Source: Acanthochlamys bracteata (lineage: Eukaryota > Streptophyta > Magnoliopsida > Pandanales > Velloziaceae). Taken from it: a DNA stretch of 64,000 bases. Numbering within the stretch: the stretch's first letter is position 1; every line of letters starts with the position of its first letter. Below the pieces are notes generated by a model. That model was not told where the DNA came from, ran no database searches, and saw nothing but the letters and a program-made list of their open reading frames with translations. The stretch is from contig CM034126.1 of NCBI GenBank assembly GCA_019914995.1, positions 11,165,001 to 11,229,000 on the forward strand, written 5' to 3'. Position numbers and translations under genes: made by a program. Of this stretch, positions 3,001-57,406 are shown piece after piece.

Positions 3001-5130
3001 AAACGAGGCAGCTCAACAGATTGCACTTGAATCCACACTGATCTTTAGTCAGTACGATTAGGTACAAGTTAGATTAGAATTACGTGATTTGAGATTCTGG
3101 ATTTAAAATTTGAATCTTATGATTTCCTTTTTTTAAAAGGAAAACAAAGAAAGAAAAATGGTATCTGCTACAATCTGCGGATTCTAGTGTATCACTTACA
3201 ATTTCAAAAATACTGAATTCTATTGAAATTAGAAGACAAATTAAGTGTGACATTAAGATCAGTGTATATGAAAATATCGACATAATTATTTTGTGTATTG
3301 CTTGATGTGAAACAAAATCACTAAGTCGTAGTTTTTATCATTTAACAAAAAGTGCTATAATATTTTGATTATTATTTTTAATTTGAAAGACAATAATATT
3401 TTCTATCTTTTTGTGACAAAATTTGTAATTATTTTAATGTGAATTTTATGAAACTAATAGTTTAAAAAAGTAAAATTGAGTATGAAATATAATTTAAAAA
3501 AATTAAGAGCGATAGTTGGAATATATAAATAAAAGTGAAGTAAAATGTAGTTAGAAAATTTTGGTGTGAAAATTTAAAATTCTGAATAAAAATTGGAATA
3601 CATAAATTAGTAAACTTAAAATCTGTAGAAAGTAATTCGGTGATCATTTAAATGCGCCTTATAAATAGTTATTATTGCAGCCGAACAAAAGCAGCTGTAT
3701 CCTCTAGTGCAAATTGCACAAAAGCAGCCTACTTCCGAACTACTCTCTGAAAACGCCCGCTCCAAAACCCATAACAAACCGTAGGTTCTCCCAAGTCCCA
3801 ACTCAACAAGGTGAGAAAAAAAAAACCAAACAAACAAACACACAAACCATGAGCACATTCTCGTTTTTCTCTACACTCAACCGCCACGTGCAAGTCATTC
3901 TCGCATTCTTTCTCTCTCGACTGAGTCGGCGTGGTGGTTGAGTGGATCCTTCTTAACCGAATTCCACGTCACCCGTTCAAGTTGCGTTTCGTATTATTTA
4001 TTTTAAAATCAATTATTTAATTTTTTAATATATATTTTATATGTGTTTTAAAAAATTTATTTAAAATTTAAATATTTAAAAATTTTTGTATAATAAAATA
4101 TTATTTTTATTATTTTTAAAAGTCAAAAAAATAAAAGTTTTTATTTAAAATAACTTTATTTTTAAAAATATTCCAAACATCCCCTCATTCACGCAACCTT
4201 TCCACCTTCCTTCTTTCTACTTCTTTTATTAATATGTTACTCTCGGGAGTGTTTGGTTTTGCTTTTTTTTTAACCTAATTTTTCTCTCTATTTTATATTT
4301 TTTAATATATATTTTATAAATATATAAAAAATTTATTTAAAAATTTAGAAAGTGTAAAAAAATTCTACGAAATGAAATTTTTTTATTACATATATTTATT
4401 ATTTTTTTAAAAATAAAAAAAATAGAATTTATTTTTTAAAAAAAATAAAAATACTTTTCATTTTATAAAAATTCTATTTCATAAGCAATACCAAACACTC
4501 CCACTTCCAACTCAATCTGCCACATCTTCCGCTTTACATTCTCGGGGTATTTCTGGAATTCTCGCCACGCTGCAGCCGGTTTCCACTTCTCCTTCTGTTT
4601 TAATTTGTTGAGGTAAACATTAAAAAGTTTCGTGTTTTTACATTTTCTAGGAATAGTTTACATCACATTCTTTTATCCCATCAAATAGTCTCATTTATGT
4701 AATAAATTAATTTATTATAAATAAAGTATAAAATATGTTCTAAATTTTACTTATTTGATTCAAATTAATTATCGGAGACGTTGGATAGAAGATAATGTTC
4801 ATATTTTTTCGGATTCTAATTGCAAATCTATTTTTTATTGTTTCTGTCAATCGTTACATTTATTATTATTACTGCAGCAAGCATATAAAGAATGAGAGAA
4901 AAAAAGAACAATTATTTTATGTAATTTATTGTTACAGCAAGAATGAGATTATTAGATAGAGAGAGCAAAAGAAAAGGAGAAGAAAGTTGGAGTCTTTCGT
5001 TTCTTTTCGTGTAGAGCACCGTTTTCTTAGCCTTCGGTGGTGAAAAGATCATGGAGTGTTGTTAGATTCTTTTTCTTGTTATTGTTCCGTAGCTAGCGCT
5101 GTTGGATCTTTGTGCTGCAGATTGTAAGGC
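1..5130. other. AT-rich intergenic region and upstream flank of the GRAS gene
   Basis: I see no convincing gene here. The stretch is AT-rich with homopolymer runs (for example the T-run near 1156-1174). A short imperfect direct repeat beginning TACGCTACTAA occurs at about 1879 and again at 1945, 66 bases apart, in a more GC-rich patch (1780-2060) that may be an old transposon piece. A MITE-like element lies at 4245-4502. The last 200 bases or so, rich in GA and CT tracts, are probably promoter and 5' leader of the downstream GRAS gene. Short ORFs at 465-782, 3080-3283 and 3616-3941 show no family signature. Confidence 0.6.
4245..4502. repeat. AT-rich MITE-like element with GGGAGTGTTTGG inverted termini
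   Basis: The left end reads GGGAGTGTTTGG and the right end CCAAACACTCCC, a perfect 12-base inverted repeat. It encloses about 230 bases of A/T-rich DNA with no coding capacity. The inner right border (TTTCATAAGCAATACC) matches, in inverse orientation, the inner left border of similar elements at 26112 and 29138 (GGAATTGCTTATGAAAT). It therefore belongs to a short non-autonomous DNA transposon family that recurs through this window. I could not define a clean target-site duplication, so the superfamily is open. Confidence 0.7.
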
Positions 5131-6942
5131 ATGGCGTCAGGGTATCCCGGACGAGATTATTATAGCGCACTGGGTTACATGGGTTCCGGTGGATCGCCGC
5201 AGCTTTACGTCGGTAACGGTAGCGGTGGTGTTGGACTGAAGCGTTCGGTAACGGAGACGGAATGGCAGCAGCAACTACAACAGGCGTTGTTTCTGAGATC
5301 AGTAAAGCAGAAAACTTTACAATCTTCTCCCATCTCTACTCTTTCTCCGATCGATCTTTCTGTTTTCTCTCCGGAGATCGCTCAGTCTTCTACTTCTTCG
5401 TCGACGCTGTCTTTCTCCCAAAGTTTTGGTTTTGCGCCTTCGCAGCAGATGGGAGGTAGGCCTTCTGGGGATATTTCGTTCTCTTTGCCGGCGAAGAATT
5501 CTTCGGCGGCTATGCAGAGCCGGTTGTTGGAGTTGGAGAAGCAATTGCTCGATGACGAAGAAGAAAACGAGCCAACCGCTTCCGTTGGATCCGTCGTAAC
5601 AGCGACACATACCGACTGGACCGACGAGATGCAGCAGCTCCTCTCCCCTCCTCCACCGTCTGCAGCCGCTGCTCCGTCGCTGCAGCCTTCGACAAACTCT
5701 CAGATTCAAAATCCTGTATCTCCTTCGCCTACGACTTCGTCGTCTTCCTCTTCGTCCTCAACAGCGTCGTGTCCTCCTTCATCGTCGCCGTCTTCAAGCA
5801 GGCAGCTTATTATCGACACTGCCGCCGCAATCGCCGAAGGCAACATGGAATTAGCTGCGGCAAACATAGCAGTTTTGAAACGGGCGGCGAACCCACGCGG
5901 CGATCCAGAGCAGAGGTTGACAACTTACATGGTTGGGGCGCTGCTGTGCCGCATGAGTTCATCTCCTCCGGGTCCCCACCCCGCACCGGAGCTCTGCACG
6001 AGGGAACATTTCGCAGCTACCCAAGTCGTCCTTGACAGCTCGCCGCCGTTTAAGCTCGCTCTCTCTGCCGCAAACCTCGCGATCCTCGACGCCTGCAAAG
6101 ATTACCCAAGAATCCACGTGATCGACTTCGATGTCCGTAGTGGTGCGCAGTTCGCCTCCCTCGTCCACGCCATCGCCGATCAGTACCGTCACCGCCGCCC
6201 TCCATCGCTGCATATCACTGCAGTCTGCGATCCGTCCTTCCCTTTCAATACCTACAACTCCGGCGGTGGTGGGGCCGGTTACCTCAAAACCGTCGGAGAA
6301 AAGCTTGCAGCTTTAGCTGAGAGAGTCGGCGTTGGGCTCCTGTTCAACATCGTTCCCCTTCTTCCGTCAGAACTCGACCGAGTTTCACTCGAGTGCGAAC
6401 AGGGGGAAGCTTTAGCTGTGAACTTCGCCTTCATTCTCTCCCGCGTCGCCGACGAGAGCGTCTCGCCGGCAAATCCACGAGACGACTTGCTGAGAAGAGT
6501 GAAAGCTATGAGTCCAACAATAGTCACGCTAGCCGAGCAAGAATTGAACACAAACACGGCATCTCTTGCCGGACGCGCCGCAGAAGCTTGCGCACATTAC
6601 GGCGGAATTCTCGAGTCTCTGGACGGCGTTGCTCCACGTGACAACAGAGAGCGCACAACAGTAGAGGCTTGTCTTGGCCGGAAAGCAGCTAACTCGGTCG
6701 GACGAGAGGGCGCTGAACGAGTGGAGCGCTGTGAAGTGTTCGGGAAGTGGCGAGCCCGCATGAGCATGGCTGGGTTCAAATCGATCCCACTCGGCCAAGC
6801 GGTTATCGATCCTGTCAAGAATCGGCTCGATTCGATCCGTTCTGCCCAAAACCAAACGGGTTTCTTTTTGAAGGACGAGTCGGACGCGGTTTGGCTCGGC
6901 TGGAACGGTCGGTGTATCACTGTCGCTTCTGCTTGGCATTAA
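5131..6942 (+). CDS. SCL8-like: GRAS-family transcriptional regulator, SCL8-like
   Basis: Single-exon gene of 603 residues for a plant GRAS protein, a nuclear regulator family that acts in transcription through protein partners. Residues 1 to about 223 are low-complexity (Ser, Pro and Gln rich), as is usual for the variable GRAS N-terminus. The first leucine-heptad region starts near residue 224 (QLIIDTAAAIAEGNMELA). The VHIID-type core is IHVIDFDVRSG at about 328-338. A second heptad region and a PFYRE-type block (LAVNFAFIL, near 428) follow, and the protein ends in a typical SAW motif (WLGWNGRCITVASAW). The N-terminal SGYPGRDYYSALGYMG-like start and the VHIID variant point to the SCL8 branch rather than DELLA, SCR or SHR. 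The ATG at 5131 is chosen because it opens the whole conserved reading frame. The frame is intact to TAA. Assignment to GRAS is firm; the SCL8 subgroup is from recall of the family. Confidence 0.93.
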   Translation: MASGYPGRDYYSALGYMGSGGSPQLYVGNGSGGVGLKRSVTETEWQQQLQQALFLRSVKQKTLQSSPISTLSPIDLSVFSPEIAQSSTSSSTLSFSQSFGFAPSQQMGGRPSGDISFSLPAKNSSAAMQSRLLELEKQLLDDEEENEPTASVGSVVTATHTDWTDEMQQLLSPPPPSAAAAPSLQPSTNSQIQNPVSPSPTTSSSSSSSSTASCPPSSSPSSSRQLIIDTAAAIAEGNMELAAANIAVLKRAANPRGDPEQRLTTYMVGALLCRMSSSPPGPHPAPELCTREHFAATQVVLDSSPPFKLALSAANLAILDACKDYPRIHVIDFDVRSGAQFASLVHAIADQYRHRRPPSLHITAVCDPSFPFNTYNSGGGGAGYLKTVGEKLAALAERVGVGLLFNIVPLLPSELDRVSLECEQGEALAVNFAFILSRVADESVSPANPRDDLLRRVKAMSPTIVTLAEQELNTNTASLAGRAAEACAHYGGILESLDGVAPRDNRERTTVEACLGRKAANSVGREGAERVERCEVFGKWRARMSMAGFKSIPLGQAVIDPVKNRLDSIRSAQNQTGFFLKDESDAVWLGWNGRCITVASAWH

Positions 6943-16354: not shown

Positions 16355-16559
16355 ATGGTGAGGGGGAAGACGGAGATGAGGAGAATAGAGAACGCTACAA
16401 GCAGGCAGGTGACCTTCTCGAAGCGCCGCAACGGTTTGCTGAAGAAAGCCTTTGAGCTCTCCGTTCTTTGTGATGCTGAAGTTGCTCTTATAGTCTTCTC
16501 TCCTCGAGGCAAACTCTATGAGTTCTCCAGCTCCAGGTGATCCATTCCTAGCTCCTCCT

Positions 16560-16599
<40 letters not shown>

Positions 16600-19500
16600 G
16601 AGCTCCAGAAACGTCCGATATGAACTAATTTGTGAAAAATAGATCTTTTTCTTTCTTTCTTTTTTCAAATTTTGGTTCTGATAATTGAGGAGCACTCACT
16701 CCTCATGTTGCTGTGATCCACTTGGTTTCCGTTACCTGACTACTTCAATTTCTATCGATTCTAATCTGCTGCAGCACAACTTCCAGGTTTATAAATATTC
16801 CTGTTCTTCAGAACTAGTTAATTAAGCATCAAAGGTTAGAGCTTGACTGTTTTTATACTTGATGCGAAGGAAATCCAGTATAGATATTGTTCAGTATTAA
16901 TTCTTCTCCGAGCTAGTTGATAGCTCTTTACCGGTAATGTCTTCCTGAAAGAAGAATCAGTATGTGCTTCAAAAGCTTCCATATACTTTATCTCCATAGC
17001 TTTTCTCTCTCATTGAGAGTTAATGCCGTCCATGCTTCACACTGCTTCTTACATTGACGAGATTCCTCAGTATTTTAAGAAGCCATTTTAGCACATAGCC
17101 TACTGATGAGATGTGTGCAGAAACATATGTACACAAGCTATTAATACTGGCTGTACGTAGATCTCATTTCACAGTGCACCATGTTTTGACAAAAGCTTTC
17201 GTATTTGTTCACCACAAAAACTTTGTTACTTTCACCCGCAAGACTGGTTTATGGTTCTTATCTTCTCAAAATTACTTATGTTAGGATATATAATTAATTT
17301 ACATCTACTTCCGAAGTAAGCAGAAATATTGGATGAAACGTAGTAAACATGCTTTCTACTCTTTCGGGGTAACCAACAAACTGCACTTCTGTTAAGAATA
17401 GCACACTATATAGTTATATATATGCTCTATTTATTTGTGAAGCTTTCAGAACTTACAACGAGGTCTCAGCCAAAGTTTGTGGTTATTCAAAATCTTTCGT
17501 CCTTGCATTATCAATGATGGTATTCTGCAGCGTTTGCGTTCTGGATGTTAGGCTTAAATCAGATAGCTTTCTTAATTTCATATAATTTGCTATCAGCCAG
17601 GTGGTTAAGGTGATTATTGCATATAATTAAGCATGAAGTTGTAATCCATTCATCATGTTTAGAGTATTACTATAACTAATTAATTATGTCTAAAATTATC
17701 TTGTGAAGCATTTTGCTTGGTTAATACGTGGTAGAATTCTGTATTTAGAAGAAGAGAAAAAAACAAACCAATAAAAGGGAAAAACGTTTTCCTTTGAGTA
17801 GTACATCGCATTGATAAACTTAATATGACATCATGATGAATTATGTGACCGCTACAAACTTTTACGGAAAGAGCCAAAATGTTATCTATCTAAAGACAAC
17901 TTTCACATGCTGCATTTTAATTATGTTTGGTAAAAGTGCTTATTTGAAAAATTGAGCGTGTCTTCTTAAAAAACATAAAATGCACGGTAATTGATATTGT
18001 ACGTTTAATCCTTAGAGTCAAGACAAATGGTCCAGATGAGATGCAATTTTATTAACAAGCGGCTCATGATCAATCTAAGAATGTACTAGTGAAAATTCTT
18101 ACTTAAGGTTTGGTATACAACCATATAGGATTTTGTTCTTACTAGTTTCACTGTAACTACACATTTTGAAGTGTGCAGAAATAGGAAAAGCTCAGTTAAA
18201 ACTCCTTAGTGCAAGTATGATGCTGTAGTTTTATGATAATTATAAGTATAGCATGACTTGACTTAACAATAAACTCATCTATTTTACTTTCAACATAAGG
18301 ATATTACTTAGTGTTTGTGGGCATGTTTGGGGGAGCTTTTTTACCCCAACTTTTTATTTCAATTTTCTCAATAAAGCTTCTAAAATGTTCTACAGAATTT
18401 TTAAAAAAATTTTTAAAATGCCGAAAAATTAACGTCGTGAAATCTTCTTATTAGTAATTTTTATTATTTTTTTGAAGTAAAAAAAAGGCTCATTTTTTAA
18501 AAATTCTCAAAATACTCTTCTTTTTCGAAAAGCTCCTTTTCAAATAAGCATTTACAGTATACAAATTACAAATATAAAGGAATAATTACTAATTCCTTCT
18601 AAATGCTCTTAGTGGGGATAATGACTGAAGATTCGGTCTCTTTAAAGAAAGAAATTGGAAATTTCATAATCGACAAACCAAACAGACGTGGGCTTTCTAT
18701 ATTTGTTGTTATCAATGGAAAGAGAAGGAGTTTTGCCAAAATCTTTTCATTGAGATAAGATGGTCATGAGTCTGAAGAAAGCAACTTGATAACCTTTCCT
18801 GAACAGACACTTCAGATTTCGGAGATAAATTGAAAACTGAATCTAAGTGTATAGACCGAAAGCTAGTTGAATTCATTTGCCATGACGCAACTGACTTCCT
18901 AACTTCCACTAAGTATTTAACTGTTCTCATTCCGTCCCCGACTTCCAATAACTTGACTGTAGCAGACAAATTCAGTTCGTATACACTTTAGTGTTCATGA
19001 CTTTTAAACTTATTCCTGGACGTAAATACCAATATTTCAATATACCTATATCTAAATTATTAGGTTTTTGAGTCAATAACATCAGGTGTAGACACTAGAT
19101 GAAGATTATTGTACCATGTCTTCAGTCTGGTTTAATGACTGAACACTCATTAATTACCATCTAAAAACGAAAGTGGAGAAGACGTTTGCACAAAGTTTAG
19201 CATTCTAGCGCAATATGCTCTGTGGTTAAAACCTGTCTTACAATTATCATGTTGTAAGAGACCTCGTCTTAGAAGCTTCAATTAAGTTTAACTTGATTTA
19301 TGGTCATAAATTCAAACTTTTGTAAGTTGCTAATGTCTTGGTCATTCACTTAGCATGGAGAACACGACTAATCGTTACAAGGCGCACACGAAGGACATCA
19401 GCACTAACAATAAGGGAATTGACCAAATAGTCCAGGTAAAATTTGCAAACGCCTAGTTATTCACATTACTCCTTTATTGAGTCCCTTGGTATGGTGCTTT

Positions 19501-20691
19501 TCCTTAAAAAAAGACTAGGAAGTTTCTAAAAGGATATCCTTTGGGGCATAACAACTCTCATTTAATCTTTAATTAATAACAATACCTTAAGCAAATAAAG
19601 ATACTCCTATAACTAGCAAAACAACTTGCTAAATATGTTTATATTGTATCCATGATAACGGTGAGCTACTTGATTGTAAAGAAAGTCAATCATCTTAGAT
19701 AAGGTAAACAATACTTCTTCAGCACCTTCTATTGATTGTCATATGAGTAAAAGAGCCCCCTTTTAAGCTTGTGGGATGCAGTCTCGACATGTTATTGCAA
19801 TATGGAAACTACAGTAATTAAATTGTGATGGCTACCACACAATTTATGGGAGACATTTTGTCTCATAAATTTATGGAGACATATTGCAAGCTATTCGTAT
19901 TAATTTTTCTGGCCTATGTGATCTTGACATCATGATTCTATTCACTATCCTATATCAGGCTCTTAAGATCGATGCAGCAAGCACCTCTAGGAAGATTGAA
20001 GTTCTAGAAGATTCCAGAAGGTGGTAAGCATAACACTCCTTGTTCGAAGATGTTTCTTAAAACATGTAGTATCTGTGATGAAGTTATTCATTGCAGGAAG
20101 CTTTTGGGCCAGAATTTGGAGTTGTGTACCGTTGAAGAGCTGAATGAATTAGAGGTTCAGCTAGAACAAAGTCTTAGTAGCATCAGAGGAAGTAAGGTAC
20201 TTTCGGTATAAATAATTTTATCTCACAAAAATTAATGATTAGAAAACAATTGTTATATATGACAACAATGAATTCTTCAATCATTCTCTCAGCATCAATT
20301 GCTTTTGGAACAGATAAAACTTCTTAAAGAGAAGGTATGCTGAATGTTCTGTGGACATAGATGTAACAAATACATTGTGAACTCCATGTGAGCTAATGGA
20401 GTATAAGTTTTTGTTGAAATTGTAGGGGACGGTCTTGCAGGATGAGAATGTCTTATTGCGTGAACAGGTATATATATCTTTTTCTTTTCCATTTTAAATT
20501 CCTTTTCTCTGCTCATAAATCAACTAAATTAGTTATTTCACGGGAAGTGCAAAGAGGGAACGCAGTCCTTAGAAGCTCCAAGGGAATCTACCGAAAATGA
20601 TCAAGAAAATCAACATATGGATGTTGAAACTGAACTACATATTGGGACTCCAGGGATTGGGCGACTGCAGTCCATTAAAGCAAATGGTTAA
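16355..20691 (+). CDS. SOC1-like: MIKC-type MADS-box transcription factor, SOC1-like
   Basis: Spliced gene for a 217-residue floral-pathway MADS factor of the SOC1 (AGL20/TM3) group. Exons: 16355-16536, 19354-19435, 19959-20020, 20097-20196, 20293-20334, 20426-20467, 20548-20691 (182, 82, 62, 100, 42, 42 and 144 nt, the standard MIKC pattern). The MADS domain (residues 1-61) starts [20 protein letters not shown] and is intact. The K domain follows from about residue 88, including [20 protein letters not shown]. The C-terminus carries a SOC1 motif ([11 protein letters not shown], usually EVETELFIGLP). SOC1 proteins integrate photoperiod, age and gibberellin signals to promote flowering; that is family knowledge. 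Intron 1 is 2.8 kb and contains an AT-rich insert. An alternative donor three bases downstream of exon 3 (GTAAGC instead of GTGGTA) would add one Trp. It lies directly upstream of an AGL6-like pseudogene. Confidence 0.93.
16559..16599. repeat. Compound (CT)n(CA)n microsatellite in SOC1-like intron 1
   Basis: A CT run passes directly into a CA run about 20 bases after the exon 1 donor. It gives long spurious reading frames on the minus strand. Confidence 0.9.
18318..18550. repeat. MITE-like AT-rich insert in SOC1-like intron 1
   Basis: The stretch begins near GGGCATGTTTGGGGGAGC and closes near GAAAAGCTCCTTTTCAAATAAGC, with A/T-rich filler. It resembles the GTTTGG family seen elsewhere, but its termini are imperfect and no target-site duplication is clear. 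Confidence 0.4.
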
Positions 20692-22789
20692 CATATTATT
20701 CCTTGGCCTGTAAAACATTCTCTTCGTATCTAAAAGCCTCTATATATAGCCTACCTCATGATCAACAACCGCATATATGGATCAATGCAAAAAGAAGAAG
20801 AATAAGAAAAAAAAAAAAAGAGACTGCCTGTATGTGTTTCTTTGCATATGTTAGCTAGCACCTGTTCCAGAATAAGCAAATGAATGTTGAATCTGTTTAA
20901 CATTTGGATCGTTGTGTGAATTGCTGCATAGTAGAGGGTAATAACATGTGCGTGAACGATGTATAACATGGCCGCATGAGATTTATTAGGGCTAGTTCTG
21001 AAGGACTTGATATGAGGTTTCGCTTTAAAGATTTCATTTTTATAATTACGGAAACGTTTTGGTGATTAGTGTTGAATATTCCAAAGGAGACTATGCGGTT
21101 ATTTGAGATTGTTTAAAAAATAAAGCTGAAAATAATGAGCTTTTTTTCCTTTTAAAAACGAACTTATTTTTTTCTAGCATAAAGAAAAATTATAGATATA
21201 ATAATTATATGATCTATAATTTGCTTATACCTTCCCAGTTCCCAAATTGTACAAAATAAAATATTATAGAAGTTTTTCGAAAAATGAAAAATTGAAAACA
21301 ACATAAAAGAAGTAGCAAAATGCACAGACCAAACATCCCTACATCTCTACTGTTCACACACCATGTTTATTTTAATAAGAAAAGATGCTTATCATAGAAA
21401 GCTCAAAAAAAAAAAAAAAGAGGTGGTAGCTGTTCATCAAGAGAGAGATGGAGATGGGAGAGAAGGTGACCGGAGGAAGAAGAAAGAACGGCAAACGGGA
21501 AAAGATTGCGGGCAGACGCGCGGAGGGAAGGATCGCGGCTGTCAGAAAAGAAAAGAAAAAATGGAAAGACAAGAGAAAGGGTATTTTGAATATTAGATAA
21601 ATAATCTTGCAAATAAATTACTGAGAATACCACTAGGTAATCCGAATCCTTTCATTTGAAGTAATCTGAATTTTATCTTCCATTTAACAAACCAAATATA
21701 GAAATATATGTTTTTGTGTAAATTTTTAAAAATTATATCAAGTAATCCAACCAAATATTCTAAAATGTCTATATTTTTTTGTCAAATTACCACCTTGTCC
21801 TTTTTCTAGGCTATTAACTAAAAATAGCCTAAGTCTTCATATCAGATTTTGGGCATATTTGAGAGTATATTTTGAGTGCTTTTCTAAAACACACTTCCAC
21901 GATTCTACTTTTAAAATTGTTTTTTTAAGCTTTACAATTTTTATAAAATTATTATAAAAGACATTTTTAAAATTAAAAATAAAAGAATATTTGTTTTTGA
22001 AATGATCTATAAAAAGTACTTCTTTTATAAAAACTCTATTTTGTTAACAATCAATTCGTGTCCTGGGTCAGAGTTCACTATGCATTGAATCTTAGTTATT
22101 TGCTACAACACAGCTCAGACTCAAACTTATATTATTGCTACAAATAACTTGCTCCATAGCGTTATGGTGAAAAATGGTACGACTTCTACGAGCAATAAGC
22201 AAAGCTGGTATACCACCAGTCCATGACCCAGAATACTTGTATGTGGCCCGAATGTTAAAGAACGAGTCTCGGACTGCGTTTGATAGCACATACCAAAATT
22301 AATTTTTTTAATTTTTTTATTTATATTTTTTAATATATATTTTATAAATATTTAAAAATTTTATTTAAAAATTTAGATAGTGTAGAAAAATTTTACGTAA
22401 TAAAATTTTTTATTACATATTTTTATTTTTTAAAAAAATTTATTTTATAAACAATTTCAAACGCGCCCTCCGACCTCTCGGTCACGTACCATCAAAATCT
22501 TCAAATTTGTGGGCTGTACATGACTGGAAATTTCAAAGCAAGAAAAGCCTGTTTTGGCTTTCTGCACTTGGGATTATGAGAGTACTTCTCTAACTACAAA
22601 TAAAAGATCCCAGCTCCTGACTAAAAAAATTAAAAGTGTGTCTGGTAATTTTTTAAAATAAAAAATATTTTTATTCTATTTTTAGTGCTCGTGCTTCATC
22701 TCCTTTTGTATTCCCATTGGTCTTATAAAATTAAACGTACCATGTTTTCCTTGTCTAACTTAGTAAATTTTATATATTTATCTCAACAG
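20692..22789. other. Interval between SOC1-like stop codon and AGL6-like exon 2
   Basis: This should hold the SOC1-like 3' UTR, and in an intact AGL6 gene it would hold promoter, leader and the 182-188 nt MADS-box exon. I read both strands for a MADS coding block ([19 protein letters not shown]) and found none. A Lys/Arg-rich ORF at 21363-21596 is purine-rich low complexity, not a MADS domain. AT-rich MITE-like blocks lie at about 21850-22040 and 22272-22470. Confidence 0.7.
22272..22470. repeat. AT-rich MITE-like element upstream of AGL6-like exon 2
   Basis: The left end GGACTGCGTTTGA and right end TCAAACGCGCCCTCC form imperfect inverted repeats around about 170 bases of A/T-rich DNA. The interior shares the TTTTTAATATATATTTTATAAAT landmark region with the copy at 4245-4502. 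Confidence 0.6.
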
Positions 22790-25449
22790 CACAAGCAAGA
22801 CCCTGGAGCGATATCAAACTTATAATTACTCATCTCAGGATCCTACTATTGCAGATCGTCAGACACAGGTTGTCTTCTAGAGCAAATTTCTTTTGATCTT
22901 GTAGTATATGCTTCTCCTATTTTTCATCCATCCTTTGTGTCGAAGCATTAGCAATTAGTTGAAGAGAAGACACAAAGCATTACTGAATTGATTGAGAGTA
23001 TTTCATTTAATGCTGCCCTTTATGTTAAATCATTCTAATCTGGGAATGAGAAAATACACCTACATGCATGTTTTATACCCAATACATTCACTAGCTAACT
23101 ACAATACTGAATTGGTAAGGGGACTGATCTTGTAAGACATATACTTGATCATGTGCCTTTCTTCTATAATACCCAAATTCGTTCGATTAGCCTTCTTAAT
23201 ACTTCCTTGTTTCTCTTGATGCAGAACTGGTGCCAAGAAGTTTCTAAGCTGAAGGCGAAATATGAATGCTTGCAGCGTTCTCAAAGGTAATTGTTTGCAT
23301 ACAGTGCTGCACGGTAAAAATTCATTTTAAACTTTTGAGATTCAAAAACATGTATGCCACTGGCATCTTATTCGTTCAGCTCAGCCTTCTTACTTTTTTC
23401 TCGAACATAAGGCACTTGCTTGGAGAAGATCTTGGACCATTGAGTAGGAAAGAACTGCAGCAACTTGACCGACAACTTGAAACTGCTCTCGCTCAGGCTA
23501 GAAAAAGAAAAGTGAAGTGGCCCTTACGCTTGCTTGAAAAACCATTTGAGTTGATGTTCTGTGTAGTAGCACCATATACAGATCTTAGGAGTATATTGCT
23601 GTCATTTGCATTGAAAGGAACTTGGGCGAATGGTTTTGGATATACCAATTCTATCTTGAAATTAGGGGTGGCAAATTTCGATCTGACCCAAAATCGACCC
23701 GAAAAAGTCGGATTCGAATCAACACTTAGCCGGATTCGGGTCAATTTCGGGTCGATGCGAAAATGATCCGAAATTTTAAACGGATTCGGGTCGGGTTCGA
23801 ATTGACCCGAAATTGATCCGTTTAACCCGTTTAACTATTTATATAATATATATTATTTAATAATTAGAAATAATAGTAAAAAATTTGAATTTAATTTGTA
23901 TATATATATATTTTAATTTATCTTAATTTAACTAATTTTTATTTAATTTATAAAATTTGTCAAAATTAATATTTTTCTTTTTAAATATATCATAATTAAT
24001 AATTTATATATATTATTATTAAAAATTTAATATTTATTATTTTTATTTTAATATTTTTAATTATTAAATGGGTCGATCCGAATTTGATCCGGTTATAAAT
24101 AGGTTGGGTTAGGGTTGATAATTTTGATTCATATAAATAAATGGGTCGGGTTAGAATTGAACAATTTTGATCCGGTTATTATATGAGTCGATTCGGAACC
24201 GATTCAGGAACCCGAATTGCCACCCTTACTTGAAATATGTATGCAGGATAAAAAGAGTACTGGCTGGTGAGTGTTTATGACTGTTTTAGCTTCACTCCAA
24301 GCTTGATATATACCTGTTTCATGCTTGTAGAAATTATGCTTCCTGCTAAGGTCTGCAATATGATGGTTAATCAGAGATGTTCCTTTGAGCGAAACAAGTG
24401 GATTAATATGTCTGACAATGAGCTCAGGGGTAGTAGGAAAGATTGGATCAATTGTGACATGCATGGATATTTACGTTCTACCGAACGTTAATTAAGTGCA
24501 TCGGATGTTATCTTTATACCATTTCATCTTGCACTAGAAGCTGCTGAACATGTATGTTTCTGTTGATGGTTCACTTCAATTAGCGAAAACTCGTACTCTT
24601 TGAAAGATGGAGAAGAGTTCTTTCAAGTTTCTAAAGTTCTATATTCATATTGCAGACGTAGATAATGATGGACCAAATAAATGAGCTAAGGAGAAAAGTA
24701 AGTACCGTTTGTACATAACTGGTTTCATCTTGAAATTCTTATGTTCATTGCGTGCTAGGTATTATCTGAAATGGACATAGTGTGCTACCCTGTTTAAGCC
24801 TTAAAATTTGAAAGATACGGAGTTCTGGAACTTCTTCCCCTCAATGAAATTCTGTGTTTTTTGACATGCAAATTTCATATATCCCGTTTGTTGTGAGTCT
24901 GTTTTTTACTTTTCTCTAGTATATGCACTTGCAATTTCAGTGATCCTAGCTCTTTATCTTTCATTTTCTTGTTCAAAACCTACAATTTTTTTCCTGGGAG
25001 TTTTCAGGAACGCCAACTCGGGGACGTCAACAAGAAGCTAAAAGCTAAGGTTGCTAATCATTGAACTCACCTACTTTATTAAACAAATAGATAATCTATC
25101 AATTAGCACGTCTATGTCATTGCATTAATTAATCATTGATCTTCTGCAGCTGGACGAAGGCGCATCTTATAGAGCCATTGAAGGTTCTTGGGAACCTGAC
25201 AGTGTCCCAGGAGGACACTCATTCCCTCTTCATCCTTCTCAATCGAGCACTCTAGAAACGGAGCCCATTCTACATATAGGGTACATAGTGAATTCTCTTT
25301 TCTATTTCATTTCAATATATGAATTGACAAACCTAATTATTTCACACAAATTTGGTGCAGATATCATCACAGCTTTGTTCCGATTCAAGAATCCATCCAA
25401 AGCATATCAACCAGCAGGAAACAACTTCATGCATGGCTGGGCACTTTGA
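22790..25449 (+). pseudogene. AGL6-like: AGL6-like MADS-box pseudogene (no MADS exon, nonsense codon, C-terminal frameshift)
   Basis: Seven exons match AGL6 in sequence and size: 22790-22868 (79 nt, TSKTLERYQTYNYSSQD), 23225-23286 (62 nt), 23412-23511 (100 nt, [20 protein letters not shown]), 24656-24697 (42 nt), 25008-25049 (42 nt, ERQLGDVNKKLKAK), 25150-25280 and 25370-25449. All junctions are GT/AG and phase-compatible. Three lesions show decay. No MADS-box exon lies between it and the SOC1-like stop. Exon 24656-24697 carries an in-frame TAG at 24659-24661 where AGL6 proteins have Gln (before IMM.Q). In the last exon, after LHIGYHH, the conserved ending NNFMHGWAL followed by TGA at 25447-25449 is in a different frame, so an indel lies within about 25380-25415. 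AGL6 proteins specify floral organ and meristem identity. A hAT-type element sits in its fourth intron. A truncated transcript remains possible, so it may not be silent. Confidence 0.85.
23663..24228. mobile_element. hAT-type non-autonomous transposon in AGL6-like intron
   Basis: The 566-base element is bounded by a perfect 8-base direct repeat CTTGAAAT (23655-23662 and 24229-24236), the target duplication size of hAT transposons. Its termini are inverted: TAGGGGTGGCAAATT at the left, AATTGCCACCCTTA at the right. The ends are rich in GGGTCGGGTT-like repeats and the middle is AT-rich. No transposase is encoded. It lies between the 100-nt and 42-nt exons of the AGL6-like pseudogene and lengthens that intron to 1.14 kb. 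Confidence 0.88.
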
Positions 25450-30819: not shown

Positions 30820-31845
30820 ATGGAGAACCCCAACGTCTGCACCTACGATTCGCCGTACCCAATCTACTCCATGGCTTTCTCTCCACCGCCCTCCACCTCC
30901 GCTCCTCTCCGGCTCGCCGTTGGTAGTTTCATCGAGGGCCCAACAAATCATATCGCCGTTCTCTCTTCAGATAACACAGATTCCTTCTCGTTCCAATCTC
31001 CGCCCTCGATTTCTTTCGATCACCCCTACCCTGCTACAAAACTCATGTTCCATCCACGAAACCTTTCTCTTCTTGCTTCATCAGCTGAGTGTCTTCGGAT
31101 CTGGTCTATCTCTTCAGATTCAACAACTGGAGATCTCCATTCGATTCTATCCAATTCGAGATCCGGTAGTGAGTACTGCGCTCCGTTGACGTCGTTCGAC
31201 TGGAACGAGTTTGAGCCGCGGCGGATTGGGACGTGCTCGATTGATACAACCTGCACGGTGTGGGATGCGGAGCGGTGCGTCGTTGAGACACAGTTGATTG
31301 CGCATGATAAGGAAGTTTATGATATTGCTTGGGGCGAAGCAGGGGTTTTTGCTTCGGTTTCTGCTGATGGATCTGTGAGAATCTTTGATCTAAGGGATAA
31401 AGAGCATTCCACGATTGTTTATGAGAGCCTCCGGCCGGATACACCATTGCTGCGGTTAGCTTGGAATAAGGTGGATTTGAGATACATGGCTACAACTTTG
31501 ATGGATTCAAGTAAGGTGATTGTGTTGGATATTCGGTCGCCTGCGATGCCAGTTGCAGAACTGCAGCGGCACACAGCAGCAGTCAATGCTGTTGCATGGG
31601 CACCACAGAGCGGGAGGCACCTTTGCTCTGCTGGAGATGATGGGCAGGCATTGATTTGGGAGTTGCCTAATTCTTCAGGTGCTGCTGGTGTTGGGGCTGG
31701 GAGTGGTGTGGTAGGTGGGGATGGGATCGATCCTGCGCTTTTCTATAGTGTTCCTGCGGAGATTAATCAGCTGCAGTGGTCTGTTGCTTACCCTGATTGG
31801 ATTGGGATCGCATTTGCCAACAAGGTCCAGCTCCTGAGAGTCTGA
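30820..31845 (+). CDS. TTG1: WD40-repeat protein TRANSPARENT TESTA GLABRA 1
   Basis: Intronless gene for a 341-residue WD40 protein, the same length as Arabidopsis TTG1. TTG1 scaffolds the MYB-bHLH-WD40 complex that controls anthocyanin and proanthocyanidin synthesis, trichome and root-hair patterning and seed-coat mucilage. Diagnostic blocks are [13 protein letters not shown] near the N-terminus, [20 protein letters not shown] ending near residue 140, [20 protein letters not shown] from 161, [27 protein letters not shown] from 250, and the invariant ending [16 protein letters not shown]. The start is the ATG at 30820; the same frame is open upstream to a TTG at 30781 but has no earlier ATG. 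A Gly/Val-rich loop (about residues 290-305) is longer than in Arabidopsis TTG1. The frame is intact. Confidence 0.96.
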
Positions 31846-33021: not shown

Positions 33022-34240
33022 GTAAAAGTATAATTCATTGATTCCTTCAAGTTATTTGAAATAAGCTTAATAAAATGCTAGCATTCTGGATATGGTGCAT
33101 TTTATGTGATGAAAGAAGATCATTAGATTCTTTGATGACAACTCTTATACAGTAAAAATTGATCTGTCTTGTCTTGCATCATCTTTTTATGCATATAGGC
33201 TTTAAAGATTTCATGTCTCTATCTAGAGCCTGCTTTAACCTAAATGACTTTTGAATTTCTCTAAAATTATATTAACTATAAAATGAACAAACTGCACTAT
33301 GGGATTCTATAGAATATCATCATATTTCTTATAATACCATAATATCTGCAATACCATAGTAAAATAATCCTAAAAGTAGTATTTTGGGAATATATGTATA
33401 TGGCAAAAAGTTTCTACGGTGCTTTCTTGATGCCATAATACTTTAACACCAAGGGTGATGCTTAATAAAGTAAATAATAAGTACATGAGCCCGACACACC
33501 TCTCATCCTTACTTGTCTCTCTAATCTCTTCTTCCTCTCTCCTACTACATCACTAGTTTACTACATTCTAGTTTTTCTATAAAAACAAAATAAGATACTA
33601 AGTGCTATTGCTTACTAAAAGTTTTATCCAAGCACTTTATGATTTATACAAGACCAAGTTCGTGGTGTTTGCATTGGCCTAGCATGGTATGTCAATAGTG
33701 ATACCATGTATATGAAAGCTATTCTGAAATTTTACCAACCATGTAAATGGGCCCTTAAAATGGTAATGTCGAATTTGGTTTAGAAAAGGCATCTGAGGAA
33801 ACGATGCTTTATTCTCAGATCAACCTTTCTTTATTTAGAATCCACAAGCAAATTATAACTTAATGCGCATAATTCAAACTAATATGAGAAAATTGAGAAT
33901 GCTTTAAAGAATGCTTTTCTTTCGGATAAAGTTCAATGAATTTATTGTTTGAAAGATGCAAATATTCAAATATGATTTATGTTCAAAGGATTTTGTGGTA
34001 ACTAGAAATCTCGTTGTTATCTAAAAATGGAAATAAGTAACCCAATTTATGTATTGCTCTACCTTCATAAGGTTATATGAGAAGTCTATATAATATCAAC
34101 TATGTATCTTAAATGCATTGCCGTTTTAGATTTATCTTTTTGCATTACTAACTATGATGTTAGTGCCACAATGATCTTGAGATGTTTTCACAAATAATGA
34201 AAAGTGATAAATCTATTATGGTATGATATAATGAAGGATT

Positions 34241-34918
34241 GTGACCGATTCTACGACATACAATCGAGTATGGGATCTTATTGAGTTGCCTGATGGGGCA
34301 AAAATTGTTTGTTGCAAATGGAGATTCAAATTCAAAAAAGACTCATTGGGCAAAATTAAGAAATATAAGGCCATACTCGTTGCAAAAGGATTCATACAAA
34401 AGGATTATCGAGAGAAGTTCTTTTCTGTTTCGGGAAAAGATCCTTTCCATATCATTATGGCACGAGCTGCTCATTTTTATTTAAATTCATATCACATGGA
34501 CGTAAAAACAACAGTTCTAAACGGAGATTTAGAGGAAGGTTTTTTGAATGAAAGTGAGCATACCGTGGTATTTAAAGTCCATATACGGACTGATGTAGCC
34601 CTCTCCCGGTGGTATTTAAAGTTTCATAAGTGTTCTCTTCATTTGAGTTAGTAAAGAATGTTATGGATCAAGTGATATATCACAAGGTTAGTGAAAGTAA
34701 AATCATATTTCTAGTTTTAAATATAAATGATATTTTGCTTGTAATCAATGATATGAGGTTATTACATGAGATGAAATAATTTTTTCCAAAATATTTTGAC
34801 ATGAAAGATATGGATAAGACATCTTATGTCATTGGTATAAAATTTATAGAGGCAGATCGCAAAGTATTTTAGAATTATCTCATAAAGTCTATATCAATTA
34901 AGTTCATCAGACATCAAG
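34241..34918 (+). mobile_element. Ty1/copia retrotransposon relic (reverse transcriptase)
   Basis: The frame from 34241 reads as the start of a copia reverse transcriptase: VWDLIELPDGAKIVCCKWRF, then KYKAILVAKGFIQ and HMDVKTTVLNGDLEEGF. Downstream, beyond 34651, the remnant of the catalytic region (LNINDILLV, where YVDDxL is expected) and DMKDMDKTSYVIGI are separated by stops and frame changes. No LTRs or integrase are visible nearby. It is a dead fragment. Confidence 0.85.
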
Positions 34919-39977: not shown

Positions 39978-42816
39978 ATGGCAGAGCAGCAGCTGCTCTC
40001 TGCCGGCCCTCGGCACGATAACCTTCCACCAAGCTACGTCAGGCCGGAATCTCAACGGCCTCGTCTTCACGAAGTTGTCGCCAATGAGAGCGTCCCTCTC
40101 GTCGATTTAGAAAACCCCAACAAACTCCAAATAATCCAACAAATTGCGCATGCTTGCTTTTCCTACGGTTTCTTTCAGGTAAACGATTCCAACTTCTTCT
40201 CATTCTAAGTTAATCTTATCTGCTCTGACAAGCAGATGAGTAAAACGGGTTTGTGGGTGTTGTTAGATTGTAAATCATGGGATGTCACAAGAGTTGATAG
40301 AGAAGATGCAAGAAGTTTCTAGAGAGTTCTTTCAGTTACCTGCTGAGGAAAAGATGAAGTTGTACTCCGATGATCCAGCGAAGAAGATGAGACTTTCGAC
40401 GAGCTTCAATGTTAGAAAAGAGACGGTTCATAACTGGAGGGATTATCTCAGGCTCCATTGCTACCCCCTAGAGGAATTTGTCCCCGACTGGCCTTCAAAT
40501 CCATCCTCATTCAAGTAAGCATTTCTTATGAAAGTTCTTTTTGTTTTCTCGTTTATGTGTTTGCCTTTTGGTGCTTCTTGAACAATGCAATGCTGCTTAA
40601 AAACTATCGTGCCGCCTCTATATGTATGAAATTACTGTTCTTCCAAACAGCATGAAATTATTCTTGGAGTTATATTTGTAGAAATTAACTGCTCAAAGAT
40701 GGTCAATAGCACCAATTGTGTACTGAATTACTAAGTAGGCAATTGCTTTTATGTTTTCGAAATTTCAGACATCGTACGATCATTTCATGTAGAGTAGTAT
40801 TATAAATTTCTACTAACAACACAACTATAGCACAGCAAAGAGTCAATATCATGAAGCACAGTAACCTTGCACATTAAGATCAAAAGAGTATCAGAAGCGT
40901 ACTAACGGTGACCACCTGTGACGTCCTTGCCTATCAAATTTATAGCTACTACTTTGAATTGATCATGGACGGAGCACAATAGGCATTTCCATATAGTATA
41001 AAACCGTATTTTCCTATCCGAATCGATTTGCTTCAAACATTTAGGAAGAGCTGCATCCATCAGTTTCTAATGTTGCTACGTCAATGCAGTGGTGATTTCT
41101 CCACTTGATGAAAGCTAAATGGTGGATTCTAGATATCAATTTTTTACTAATTTGATTTTTAGGGGTTTTGCTTAATATTCTATCCAATAGCGGTTAGTAG
41201 TAGAAGAGTAAATAGACAACCATCTTTTGTAAATGATTGTTTCTTACTAATGTCTAATTGGACCACTTGCAAAGCATTTGTTCAAGGTAATGTTTGCTGA
41301 GTGATTTAAATTTTTTTTTGCTGAAATAAAAAATATTTTAATTTTTAAAATTTTTTTTAATTTTTTATCTCAATAAAATAATAATAATAATAATAAATAA
41401 TAATAATATCTTATAATATGTAAAGTTTTTATATAATTTTACATTTAAAATTTTTTTATAAAATATTTTAAATTTTTATTAAAAATTAGCTCATTTGTGA
41501 GATTGACTTTGAATCACATGGTTATTTATTTATTCTTTTCCTATTTTTTAAGTAAAAGCTCATGGTACTTGTCTCCCCTAGAAGGTGAAACCATTATAGA
41601 CATGCATTTGAGTCTCATCAAGTGCGCTCCAACTCGTGGGTTTCGTAGCAAAAGATTCTGCATTTGTGTTTATATGTGGATTCCTCGTTCCTACCTTCTT
41701 TTCCTTAAAACACTGTTGTAATAGTTGTGAATGGAAATTTCATTTAGGACCATTGGTAGTAATGCACGCAAATGCAACAAAAACATGTTCAACCACATGC
41801 CAAGCATGAAGAAAAAAATATCACTTTGCTTCTAAAATTCCTGTGCTGTCATTTGACATTGCTTAAAACTTGAATTTCAATTTTTTCTTTCTTAAACAAA
41901 CTTTGTACGGTATTTTTAAACAGATTTTAAATTTTTAAAAGAATACAAATAAATTATATTATATATATATAATAAATAATAAGCTTATGTTTTTGAAAAG
42001 TTTTAAAATATGTTTGTTTTTGAATTATTCTTTTTAATTTTAAACACTCCCCATTATACTTACAAATTAAAGGTTTCATGAGTAATAGTTTTTGATATAC
42101 TTATGTTTTTGTTTGTCTTACTCATTGATCCATTATGTATGCAGGGAAGTGGTGAGCAACTACTGTAGAGAAGTTAGGAAGTTGGGTTTCCGAGTACTAG
42201 GTTTGATCTCACTCAGCCTCGGTCTAGAAGAGGACTACATTGAAAAAGTTTTAGGAGAACAAGAACAGCATATGGCGATCAACTTTTATCCCCAGTGCCC
42301 AGAACCTGAGCTCACTTATGGCTTGCCTGCACATACGGACCCTAACGCTCTAACTATTCTTCTTCAAGACCACAAGGTCTGCGGTCTGCAGGTTCTTAAA
42401 GATGGTAAATGGATTGCAGCCAATCCGCATCCAGATGCATTTGTCATCAACATTGGCGATCAATTACAGGTGATTGATACTAACTCAGCCTTTAGATATA
42501 CTGGTTCTTCTTTGAATGGAATGAAAGAAGATTTGAAAGAGGAATTATACAATGCTGAAACTTTGCCTTGCAGGCATTGAGCAACGGGAAGTATAGGAGC
42601 GTTTGGCACCGAGCAGTTGTTAATTCCGACAAGGATAGGATGTCCATCGCTTCTTTCCTCTGCCCAAGTAACACAGCAGTGATAAAGCCTGCGGAGAAGC
42701 TAACTGAGGATGGTGCTACTGCAGTATACAGAAGCTACACTTATGATGATTACTACAAGAAATTCTGGAGTAGAAATTTGGATCAGGAACATTGTTTGGA
42801 ATTTTTCAGAACGTAG
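39978..42816 (+). CDS. DMR6-like: 2-oxoglutarate/Fe(II) dioxygenase, DMR6-like
   Basis: Four exons encode 338 residues: 39978-40178, 40267-40514, 42145-42469 and 42574-42816, with all phases consistent. The best match is the DMR6/DLO clade, soluble 2-oxoglutarate-dependent oxygenases that hydroxylate salicylic acid and restrain immunity (family knowledge). Seen here are the N-terminal DIOX_N block (VPLVDLENP, then HACFSYGFFQIVNHGM across the first splice), the clade hallmark FYPQCPEPELTYGLPAHTDP, iron ligands His213, Asp215 and His270 (SVWHRAVVN), and the 2-oxoglutarate Arg280-x-Ser282. The start is the ATG at 39978, which opens MAEQQLLSAG and gives the usual family length; an upstream in-frame ATG at 39828 would add 50 atypical residues. 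Intron 2 is 1.6 kb. Relatives lie at 58823-59052 and 63474-64000 on the other strand. The exact substrate is inferred. Confidence 0.93.
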
Positions 42817-47647: not shown

Positions 47648-50600
47648 ATGGCCATGGCTCCTACTACTTCACTATCTTTACCTTCTCCTTTACCCATTAC
47701 CACCAAGCTCCAACTCTCGTCTTCTTTCCTTCCTTCTCTCTCCTTCAACACCGTCTCTCCTCCTTTCCCATTCCTCCGCCGCCGTTCTTTTCAAACGCTC
47801 ACTGTTAAAGCCATGGCTCCTCCTAAACCCGGAAAAAAATCCAAGAAAGGTAGTTTCACTCTTTAATTCACTTGTCTAACTTGTTTATCTGTTGGGTTAT
47901 TTGAACTTTGACGAATCCTTATTTGGACTGTTGAAACAACAGTGGTTGGAATTATCAAGCTGGCGCTGGAAGCTGGAAAGGCAACGCCCGCGCCGCCGGT
48001 GGGACCTGCGCTTGGTTCGAAGGGTGTGAACATTATGGCATTTTGTAAGGAGTACAATGCAAAGACCGCCGACAAGGCCGGATACGTTATTCCAGTGGAG
48101 ATCACCGTATTTGATGTAAGTGAGTGAGTTTAGTGTTCTGAAGTCTTTTATATAAGAATTGTATATTATTTGTAATTTTGGTAGTTTAACATTGTCTATA
48201 AGCTCTTCCTTGTTATCAATATAAAAGTTTGAAACTTTGGACTTGCGTTTTGCCAATATTTTTTAGTTTATGATTTATTTGTTACAGGATAAGAGCTTTA
48301 CTTTCATCTTGAAGACTCCACCTGCTTCGGTTCTATTGCTGAAAGCTGCAGGTTAGGCTTCTTCTGCTTTCTTTTTTATCACTTTCTACTAATTTTATGT
48401 TCCGTTTCTTCTTGGTAGTGTGGATTTTGTCATGTTGAATTTGTTCAAAACGAAAATTGTGATTGAGGAGATATGTTTGGTAAATACAACTTTGAAGCTT
48501 CTTCACTACTTTAAATTATATAATAACTTTAATTTACTTGGAATATGACTTTCTTACTTGAACAACCCCATTCTCAAGGGTATCTATACAAGATACAATA
48601 ATGGAACAAAAAAACCAGCTGTACAGAATAATTATAACTGGACATACTAACTCTCCCTCTCAAGTTGGTGTATAAACATCCTACATATCCAATTTGGATA
48701 GTAATTTATGGAGTGGACCAATAGTAACTGCGTGAGTCATCATTTAGCTGGTTAAGCTGCACTTTAATGTAAGGCATCTTTATCGTGTCAGAATCAAGAT
48801 TTTTCTTAATGTAGTTCCTATCAAGTTCAGCATCCATAATTAGATAAACTGCACCGAACTATTTGCTATCTTAATATCTGCCGTATTATCACAAAAAGGC
48901 ACCATAGATTTGGACCAAACCCAAGTTCTCTTAAAAGAAATCTTAGCCGAATAAGCTTTGTAGTTGCATGGTGAAGAGCACAATATTCAGCTTTTAACAT
49001 CAATGCTGCATTCTATTTCTTACTTCTCCAACTCACCAATTAGCTCCAACAAATGATACATATTCAGAAGTAGACTTCCTTTCTAACTTGAATCCATCAA
49101 AATTAGAACTTGTGTAGCTCATAATGTCTAGGTGTCCATTCTTGCAAAACATATCAACTTTACTCGGAGAGGATTTCAAATAAATCAAGATGTGATCCAC
49201 TACATTCATGTGTTGATCATTAGGATTGTGCATAAATTCGTTCATTACACTGAGTACATATGATAGGTAAGGTCTAATGTGAGTCAAATAGATCAACTTC
49301 GTCCCTTGTTTCCAATATCTCTTTTGATTCATTGGATCCAATCAAGATAAATAGTAATGCCATGATTCACCTAAGTAGGAGTACCTATAGTTTCACATAC
49401 ATAGTTATAAGTTTCAACCAAGAAAGCTAATGCACGCTTCTGTAGTGAGAAAAACGCTTGCTTGGATGGAGACACTTCAATGTCCAAGTACTTTAAAAAC
49501 CCCAAATCTTTCATTCAAATTTCTTAGCTAAATAGCTTTTTTTTTGTCTCATTTGCGTTACTACATATAACAATCATGTCATAGATATAAATAATAAGGT
49601 AAATCATCACCATCTATTTTATAAAACAGATTGTGATCTAACAAAGCTTGCTTAAAACATTCTCCTTTATTTAGTAGCTCAATCTACGAAACCATACCTT
49701 TGGCGACTATTTCAACCCACACTGCGTCTTTTTCAACTTGCATACCTTTCCTTCTTCTAGTGTAAACCCTTCGGAGGATCCATATACTCCTTCTATATCA
49801 AATTACCTGATAAAAAAAGTATTCTTCACATCAAACTGTCATAATGTCCAAATTAATCACAAGATAGAGCATTTTGAACAGTGTTCATCTTGGCTTCAGA
49901 GTAAAAGTCTTTAAGCCAATCCTATAAGTTTTTGTAATCCTCAAAAACTAGTCTGGTCTTGTATATGTTTTAACTATACATCTACTTTATATTTCACTGA
50001 AACATTCACTTCTGCCTCACTATCTTCTTCCCTTCTAGTAACTCGACCATCTCCTAAGTGGAGTTCTTTAGGAGTGCTTTTAATTCCTCTACGATAGCGG
50101 CCTTTCACTTAAGATTTCCAAGAGGTATCTGAAAATAACTAGGAATAGATGTAGAAGACAAATGAAGGGCAAAAGAAAGTTGAGTTTTAGACAGACAGTA
50201 AGAATCAGAGTCAAAATAGATAACAAATATTGAAAAATGATTTTAGAAACTCAACCTATCCGATTTTTTACTATCATAAAGGGGCTATCTCCTCTCACCA
50301 ATTAGTGTATTCAACACAGCAATTTTTTTACTTTATAGATTTGGAGTCAATATATGAAGTTGAAGATATAGGAGAACGAACGTATACCTCAAAATTAATT
50401 AAGGCAGAGTCACCGGAAGGCATGGTATATCATTAAAAGGAGTGCTGGAATTTGAAGGGTGTATAACTGTAGAAGAATCTCTTTTTACTTCAAATTTGTA
50501 ACCTCTTCTCTTTCATCCATAAATGTTACTCTTCCTTGCTATTAATCTCCTCCTAAGAACCAAAGATTTATCCTCAGAGAAATAAAAAGTATGTACATAT

Positions 50601-55672: not shown

Positions 55673-57406
55673 ATGGATCATGGCCTACAAGGACCCGTAA
55701 ACTCTCTTCTTCTCCTTGTAAGTCCCCGTTAACACCATTATGATTCTCTGCTGTCTCTCCTTTTACTACTTTTATGTATGTGCTCTGCTCTGCTCAACTG
55801 CTCTTAGCTCCCATCCTTCTTCTCTGTGAAGTTCCTTTTGTGGGCCGCAGGAAGAGTTGGTGTCGGTACCCCTTTATAGGAATTTCTCATTCAATGCCTT
55901 TTGCCATTAACATGTGCTGCATATGGACTGTTCATAATTCATCCTTGTGTTATCTTTTTCAAGAAGAATGAGCAGATGTAGTAACATGAATACTATAATA
56001 CATATGAAATTTAAAATCTTGTCTTTCTCCTGTTCCATTAGGTTGAAAAACAGCAGGCAGGGTGTGAAGACGGGTTCATAAGCCCATCCCCTTGGTTGAA
56101 GCAAGATCTAGATGGTGGCGAATCTCTGCTTTCATACAACAACGTTCCTTTTCTTCAGATGCTTCAGGGAGCCATGAGCATAGAGCAGCACCAGCACTTC
56201 AAAGCTAAGGAAGAAGTTGTAGAAGAAGAAGAGCAACAACCGATTCTTCCTTCCTACCCACTACCAGAAATCACGCATTCTGAGCTTTTGTTCAAGTTGC
56301 AGAACCAAAACCTGAAGAAAGAACCGGTCACTCTGGTAGCAGAGCAGTTAGACAGCTGTGTCACTCATGCTTCATCTTCCAACGCCGTGCCGGCCAATGA
56401 GACAACTGTGAAGGAGAGGAAGAAGAGGAAGAGAGCACCACGATCAGCAGCAACAACGGCGGCAGTAATGGCTTCGCCTCCGAAAAGCGCGGAGGAGGTA
56501 GATAGCCAAAGAAGGACTCACATTGCGGTGGAGCGCAACCGTCGCCGTCTCATGAATCACCATCTCGCCACTCTCCGTTCTATCATGCCTCCTTCCTATA
56601 CCCAACGTGTACGTTTCAATTAATTGGTTACATATATAGTTGCGTTTTAGGTTGATTAGTTTCTTAGAGTCTTTTATGCATCCATTGGAAAATTGACTTG
56701 ACCGATGTGTGCAGGGTGACCAAGCATCGATAGTTGGAGGAGCTATAGAATTCGTGAAAGAATTAGAGCAGCTACTGCTCTCACTTCATGCAGAGAAGCG
56801 TTCCCGCGCCACAGCGGCCGCTATTGCTGCTGCAGAGACAGCAACTTCATCGTCATGCTCAACACCTGCAACTTCATCTACATCTCCATGCATAGCAAGT
56901 AACAACAACGAAGACGAACACTGCAACATTGCAGTAGCCACTGCTCAGCTTGATATCAATATATTGAAGGAGTTGGAAGGATTCTTCTTCTCGCCGCAGT
57001 ACAGAAGTTACTCGCAGTCGGTTAATGGAGAGTGGGGAGTCGATGTGGAGGCTTTTCTAGTGCATGGCCACGTCAGCTTAAAAGTCGCCGGCCGGCGGCG
57101 TCCGGGACAACTTGCACGCGCCGTTGCTGCGTTAGAGGAACTCCGACTACCTGTTCTTCATATCACCGTCACCTCTCTTGGATTATCCACTGTTCTCTAC
57201 TCATTCAATCTCAAGGTTCGAAATTTTATCATAATCTCTTTTTATCCATTAAAGGAAACAAAAGATTCAACGTTTTCTGAGATAGGTGATTTTGTTTGAA
57301 TTATTACAATTAATGGCAGATGGAAGAAGAGTGTAAGATGGGATCGCAGGAAGAGATAGCGTCGGCGGTGCACCAGATATTCGTTTGCGTCAATGCCAGT
57401 TGCTAG
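55673..57406 (+). CDS. bHLH57-like: bHLH transcription factor, subfamily Ia (bHLH57/67/70-like)
   Basis: Four exons encode 399 residues: 55673-55717, 56042-56608, 56715-57215 and 57320-57406, all phase 0. A short first exon ([15 protein letters not shown]) splices to [12 protein letters not shown]. An N-terminal [10 protein letters not shown]-type motif, typical of subfamily Ia, is followed by a Lys/Arg patch ([11 protein letters not shown]) and the bHLH at about residues 171-225: [20 protein letters not shown], the H-E-R contacts (175, 179, 183) for G-box binding, a splice exactly after YTQR, then [19 protein letters not shown]. An Ala/Ser-rich spacer leads to a C-terminal ACT-like region ([26 protein letters not shown]) and the ending [11 protein letters not shown]. 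Subfamily Ia includes the stomatal factors SPCH, MUTE and FAMA and the bHLH57/67/70 and bHLH71/94/96 groups; the sequence fits the bHLH57/67/70 side best. The precise role is inferred only. Confidence 0.9.

Follow-up and report, generated by a model that had tools for sequence, protein, structure and literature searches.

AGL6 Family Membership and Structure of the Remnant

The two closest described systems are the AGL6 subfamily of MADS-box genes and the non-processed pseudogenes left by fractionation of duplicated genomes. The inferred ancestral AGL6 gene of angiosperms has exons of 182, 79, 62, 100, 42, 42, 134, and 85 nt, and a 3-bp deletion in exon 2 is placed before the diversification of the core eudicots (PMC4852290). 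The locus described below resembles fractionation pseudogenes in having an intact colinear duplicate, retained introns, a premature stop codon, a frameshift and a missing 5' end, and in that the adjacent WD40 gene was lost on the opposite copy. Nothing essential sets it apart from this class, a repeat at the breakpoint and a MITE in intron 4 being local details. We read it, with a probability of about 0.93, as a non-processed pseudogene, one of two AGL6 duplicates derived from a large-scale duplication.

The window, i.e., the whole 64,000-nt stretch that was analyzed, covers positions 11165001–11229000 of one contig (C1); C2 and C8 denote other contigs of the same genome. AGL6-type exons 2–8 were found at 22790–25449 on the forward strand, with lengths of 79, 62, 100, 42, 42, 131, and 89 nt and their order kept. 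All six donors were GT and all seven acceptors AG, as the initial annotation had held in reporting seven exons of AGL6 size with perfect splice sites. Compared with the intact copy on C2, exon 2 (I region; 22790–22868, 79 nt) differed at 8/79 positions, and the K-box exons 3 (23225–23286, 62 nt) and 4 (23412–23511, 100 nt, K-box match) at 3/62 and 9/100 positions, respectively. Exon 5 (24656–24697, 42 nt) had 7/42 differences, exon 6 (25008–25049, 42 nt) 5/42, and the C-terminal exon 7 (25150–25280, 131 nt) 22/131. The translation of the joined exons, written with X at the nonsense codon, matched the Pfam K-box with an E-value of 1.5e-30.

The remnant combines a K-box with the exon lengths (79, 62, 100, 42, 42, ∼134, and ∼85 nt) that mark an AGL6 gene by descent. 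The name AGL6 is a putative assignment based on these lengths and on motifs of the family. Exon sizes (79, 62, 100, 42, and 42 nt plus the C-terminal pair), K-box and canonical introns are shared with the subfamily; the remnant is unlike its functional members in lacking the MADS exon and in carrying a nonsense codon in exon 5 and a frameshift in exon 8, which make it a pseudogene of the family. Exon 2 was 79 nt long in the C1 and C2 copies alike, without the 3-bp deletion ascribed to core eudicots (PMC4852290), a hint as to lineage.

The lesions within the exons were those proposed from the sequence at the outset. The in-frame TAG at 24659–24661 in exon 5 occupies the position of a glutamine codon, which is CAG in the C2 copy. 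Exon 8 (25361–25449, 89 nt) was one base longer than exon 8 of the C2 copy in the alignment, leaving the NNFMHGWAL ending out of frame. No uninterrupted frame runs through the remnant to the C-terminal AGL6 motif, owing to the TAG in exon 5 and the one-base insertion in exon 8. A processed (retro) pseudogene was rejected, as the six introns between exons 2 and 8 were kept.

The neighboring SOC1-like gene (16355–20691, forward strand) was open, with seven exons starting at 16355, 19354, 19959, 20097, 20293, 20426, and 20548, a product of 217 aa, and matches to Pfam SRF-TF and K-box. The picture of an AGL6-like pseudogene adjoining an open SOC1-like gene was borne out.

Loss of the First Exon

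A functional AGL6 member has a 182-nt MADS domain exon, which was present in the C2 copy and absent at the C1 site. Within the window, PF00319 matched the SOC1-like exon (16382–16525) and nothing else, in a profile search of the genome that gave 59 matches with 65/65 candidates scored. The initial annotation had found no MADS-box exon in the 2.1 kb before exon 2, and this held when exon 1 of the C2 copy was aligned to 20690–22790: it scored 18, below the 21.7 averaged by its shuffles, 99 of 100 of which scored as high. No trace of a decayed MADS exon was detected in the same interval, where the one translated match reported covered 17 residues with an E-value of 0.30.

The stretch at 20692–22693 (forward strand) contained no AGL6 exon 1 and little of intron 1, and presumably lacked the promoter too. 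It included an AT-rich high-copy repeat at 22272–22684 (forward strand; matched over ∼22270–22470 and 22647–22684), and homology to intron 1 of the C2 copy restarted at ∼22694, about 10 bases past this repeat. The simplest reading is a deletion that removed exon 1 together with the greater part of intron 1, and presumably the promoter as well, in which the AT-rich repeat may have played a part. The missing exon 1 would by itself disable the C1 copy.

Displacement of exon 1 to another place in the genome, which the initial annotation had named as an outcome that would overturn its reading, found no support. Among 52 MADS matches to exon 1 of the C2 copy, six others shared at least 90% identity with it. 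A displaced AGL6-type MADS exon was rejected because all six had their own K-box exon 2–6 kb downstream on the same strand.

The Intact AGL6 Copy and Other AGL6 Sequences

A complete AGL6 gene was present on C2 (10504332–10508341), where it was found by a genome search with the I-K region of the remnant and where it likewise lies downstream of a SOC1-like gene. Its eight exons measured 182, 79, 62, 100, 42, 42, 131, and 88 nt, giving a coding sequence of 726 nt and 241 aa with zero internal stops, in which both a MADS and a K-box domain were recognized. Among proteins of solved structure, it was most similar in sequence to SEPALLATA 3 and MEF2 chains. A search of the rest of the genome for an intact AGL6, suggested earlier as a check, thus yielded a complete copy on C2.

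The loss had been regarded as unusual on the grounds that AGL6 is usually retained at its linked site. This part of the earlier interpretation falls, since the equivalent linked site on C2 holds an AGL6 gene that is complete, MADS exon included. The C2 copy presumably carries AGL6 function; AGL6 is retained in this plant, which has not lost the gene. Once the C2 copy is considered, the surprise vanishes and ordinary gene loss after duplication is left.

A query made up of exon 7 and the first part of exon 8 had genome matches at C1 and C2 only (three matches, E up to 10). Within the reach of these searches, AGL6 is represented in the genome by two loci plus a stray exon-4 fragment on C8 (5408984–5409096, reverse strand). 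The fragment aligned over 113 bases with 89% identity to the C2 copy, had a frame change, and began close to the first exon base, running slightly beyond the donor site. No further AGL6 exons were found around it in the 6 kb read.

Colinearity of the Duplicated Regions

Six genes chosen from the window were compared between the two contigs, by searching pieces of four window proteins together with the AGL6 and SOC1 pairs. Order and orientation were kept for 6/6 (GRAS, SOC1-like, AGL6, WD40, 2OG oxygenase, and bHLH), such that the remnant has its intact partner in a colinear block, as expected of a pseudogene from large-scale duplication. The GRAS gene, a stop-to-stop frame at 5128–6942 (forward strand), linked C1:11170764 with C2:10475658, and the SOC1-like pair lay at C1:11181355 and C2:10490116. 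Downstream, an intact WD40 gene of 341 residues (30820–31845, forward strand; Pfam WD40), which we take to be TTG1-like by similarity, paired C1:11195814 with a broken partner at C2:10514539. Colinear matches were also found for a 2OG-Fe(II) oxygenase exon, a stop-to-stop frame at 42089–42580 (forward strand; C1:11207140 and C2:10530044), and for a bHLH exon frame at 56042–56623 (forward strand; C1:11221039 and C2:10540410), presumably of a FAMA-like gene, also by similarity.

The WD40 partner at C2:10514548–10515840 showed four in-frame stops in translated matches. Over 1012 aligned bases its DNA was 82% identical to the window gene, with one 266-base insertion and several indels that were not multiples of three, and its longest sense frame was 123 aa. 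For this reason a 403-aa open frame at the same place was rejected. The second-best match of the window WD40 gene was a relative on C8 (3688169–3688708), which scored above the decayed C2 copy; what links the C1 and C2 WD40 genes as a pair is therefore their position and the beginning of the gene. The opposite losses, of AGL6 on C1 and of WD40 on C2, are as predicted by gene-by-gene fractionation, and the two regions offer a neat worked example of the process, with neighbors lost in opposite directions.

A second 2OG oxygenase exon was observed near the end of the window (C1:11228714–11229046, reverse strand). It may pair with C2:10556320 (reverse strand), which would lengthen the colinear block.

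Divergence and Timing of the Loss

Exons 2–7 of the remnant differed from the C2 copy at 54 of 456 bases (∼88% identical). The aligned introns 2, 3, 5, 6, and 7 of the two copies were 58–72% identical, in a comparison from which the largely absent intron 1 and the MITE-bearing intron 4 were left out. Pairwise dS, estimated by the Nei-Gojobori method, was 0.522 for SOC1, 0.524 for GRAS, 0.455 for the 2OG oxygenase exon and 0.43 for the bHLH exon, values that would fit one duplication, of the block or of the whole genome. For exons 2–7 of the AGL6 pair dS was 0.306 (26 synonymous differences), with the lowest value in exon 2 (0.17). That this is below SOC1 and GRAS (0.52) might reflect gene conversion, or chance and sampling noise.

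The dN/dS of the AGL6 pair over exons 2–7 was 0.258 (bootstrap 0.134–0.475), compared with 0.153 for SOC1, 0.139 for GRAS, 0.09 for the 2OG exon and 0.291 for the bHLH exon. Being higher than in SOC1, GRAS and the 2OG exon but lower than in the bHLH exon, it gives by itself no clear sign of relaxed selection. If the C1 copy had been neutral since the duplication, with its partner at ∼0.14, a dN/dS of ∼0.57 would be expected, which exceeds the bootstrap range. The same arithmetic puts the neutral fraction of the time since duplication at ∼0.3, within a range from none to ∼0.8.

Because the exons are ∼88% alike and the introns 58–72%, with a dN/dS of 0.26, the C1 copy was probably maintained for a while after the duplication and lost only afterwards, although these values give no firm date. 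The initial annotation had suggested that the loss might be fairly recent. A loss well after duplication is weakly supported by the dN/dS of 0.26 (bootstrap 0.13–0.48), whereas "recent" cannot be fixed. The intact splice sites say little about the date of the loss, since a brief neutral period would hit few of 26 splice bases.

Paralogues were also compared for dating, at 17 loci of which several overlapped and which included both AGL6 loci (C1, C2) and the fragment on C8. Used as outgroups, they resolved no more than a few of the residue differences between the C1 and C2 copies. By eye, exons 2–4 had more derived residues on C1 than on C2, in numbers too small for a date. The exon-4 fragment on C8 had one state in common with C1.

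We propose the following course of events. The AGL6 pair would have originated by a whole-genome or large segmental duplication, as suggested by the one block compared, and the C1 copy would have remained constrained during some of the period that followed. It may have been silenced by the loss of promoter and exon 1, through a deletion beside the repeat at ∼22272–22684, or by one of the point lesions. The rest of the copy would have drifted after silencing.

Alternative Explanations

An error of assembly or sequencing would mean that an intact AGL6 lies at this site and that the absence of exon 1, the TAG and the additional base are artefacts. The last two are single-base changes each, which is where such an error would be easiest to accept, but three separate lesions would have to be explained together, including, in a continuous contig, the absence of exon 1 along with the larger part of intron 1. 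Moreover, in genome searches with all first-look candidates scored, neither the I-K exons nor exon 7 had another near-identical copy of the kind that a further haplotype contig would supply. A DNA search was uninformative on this point, its best 40 of 2379 candidates being repeat copies without the C2 copy among them. We consider such an error very improbable.

Equally remote is the prospect that the conserved exons are still useful although the gene is dead, with the remnant acting as the downstream half of a SOC1-AGL6 chimeric transcript or as a regulatory RNA; this is to be given a very small chance.

Still less credence is due to a retained truncated protein without the MADS domain, for instance an I-K peptide interfering with dimerization. 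The initial annotation had suggested that a truncated product was retained for a time, and the conservation of exons 2–6 with their intact splice sites would suit such a product, but constraint before the loss explains this conservation. In the joined exons of the remnant, the frame contains no ATG before the TAG; traced back from exon 2, it runs into a TAA at 22764, with no ATG between this TAA and exon 2; exon 1 is gone, and so, it seems, is the promoter. Because of this lack of a start codon, a truncated protein would call for a new 5' exon and is otherwise unlikely, and the suggestion is not upheld.

A chimeric transcript in which exon 1 of the SOC1-like gene (182 nt, same phase) is spliced to AGL6 exon 2, and whose SOC1-MADS/AGL6-IK product would terminate at the TAG, is just as improbable: the two exons are phase-compatible and 6.3 kb apart on the same strand, but a phase match is expected from the relatedness of MADS genes, and a complete set of exons belongs to the SOC1-like gene itself.

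Read as a non-processed pseudogene, the remnant opens no long-standing question, and annotators are warned that a protein-coding gene model at 22790–25449 would be wrong.

Repeats and Mobile Elements

Fragments of retroelement polyproteins were observed at 34235–34651 and 50542–50886 (Pfam RVT_2 and SH3_retrovirus). Intron 4 of the remnant contained a MITE at 23663–24228 (forward strand), with the ends TAGGGGTGGCAA and TTGCCACCCTTA read in the sequence. It was flanked by an 8-bp direct repeat, CTTGAAAT, at 23655–23662 and 24229–24236, and we take the element to be hAT-like. Among the best 40 of 2379 candidates there were at least 39 further copies, with 84–90% identity.
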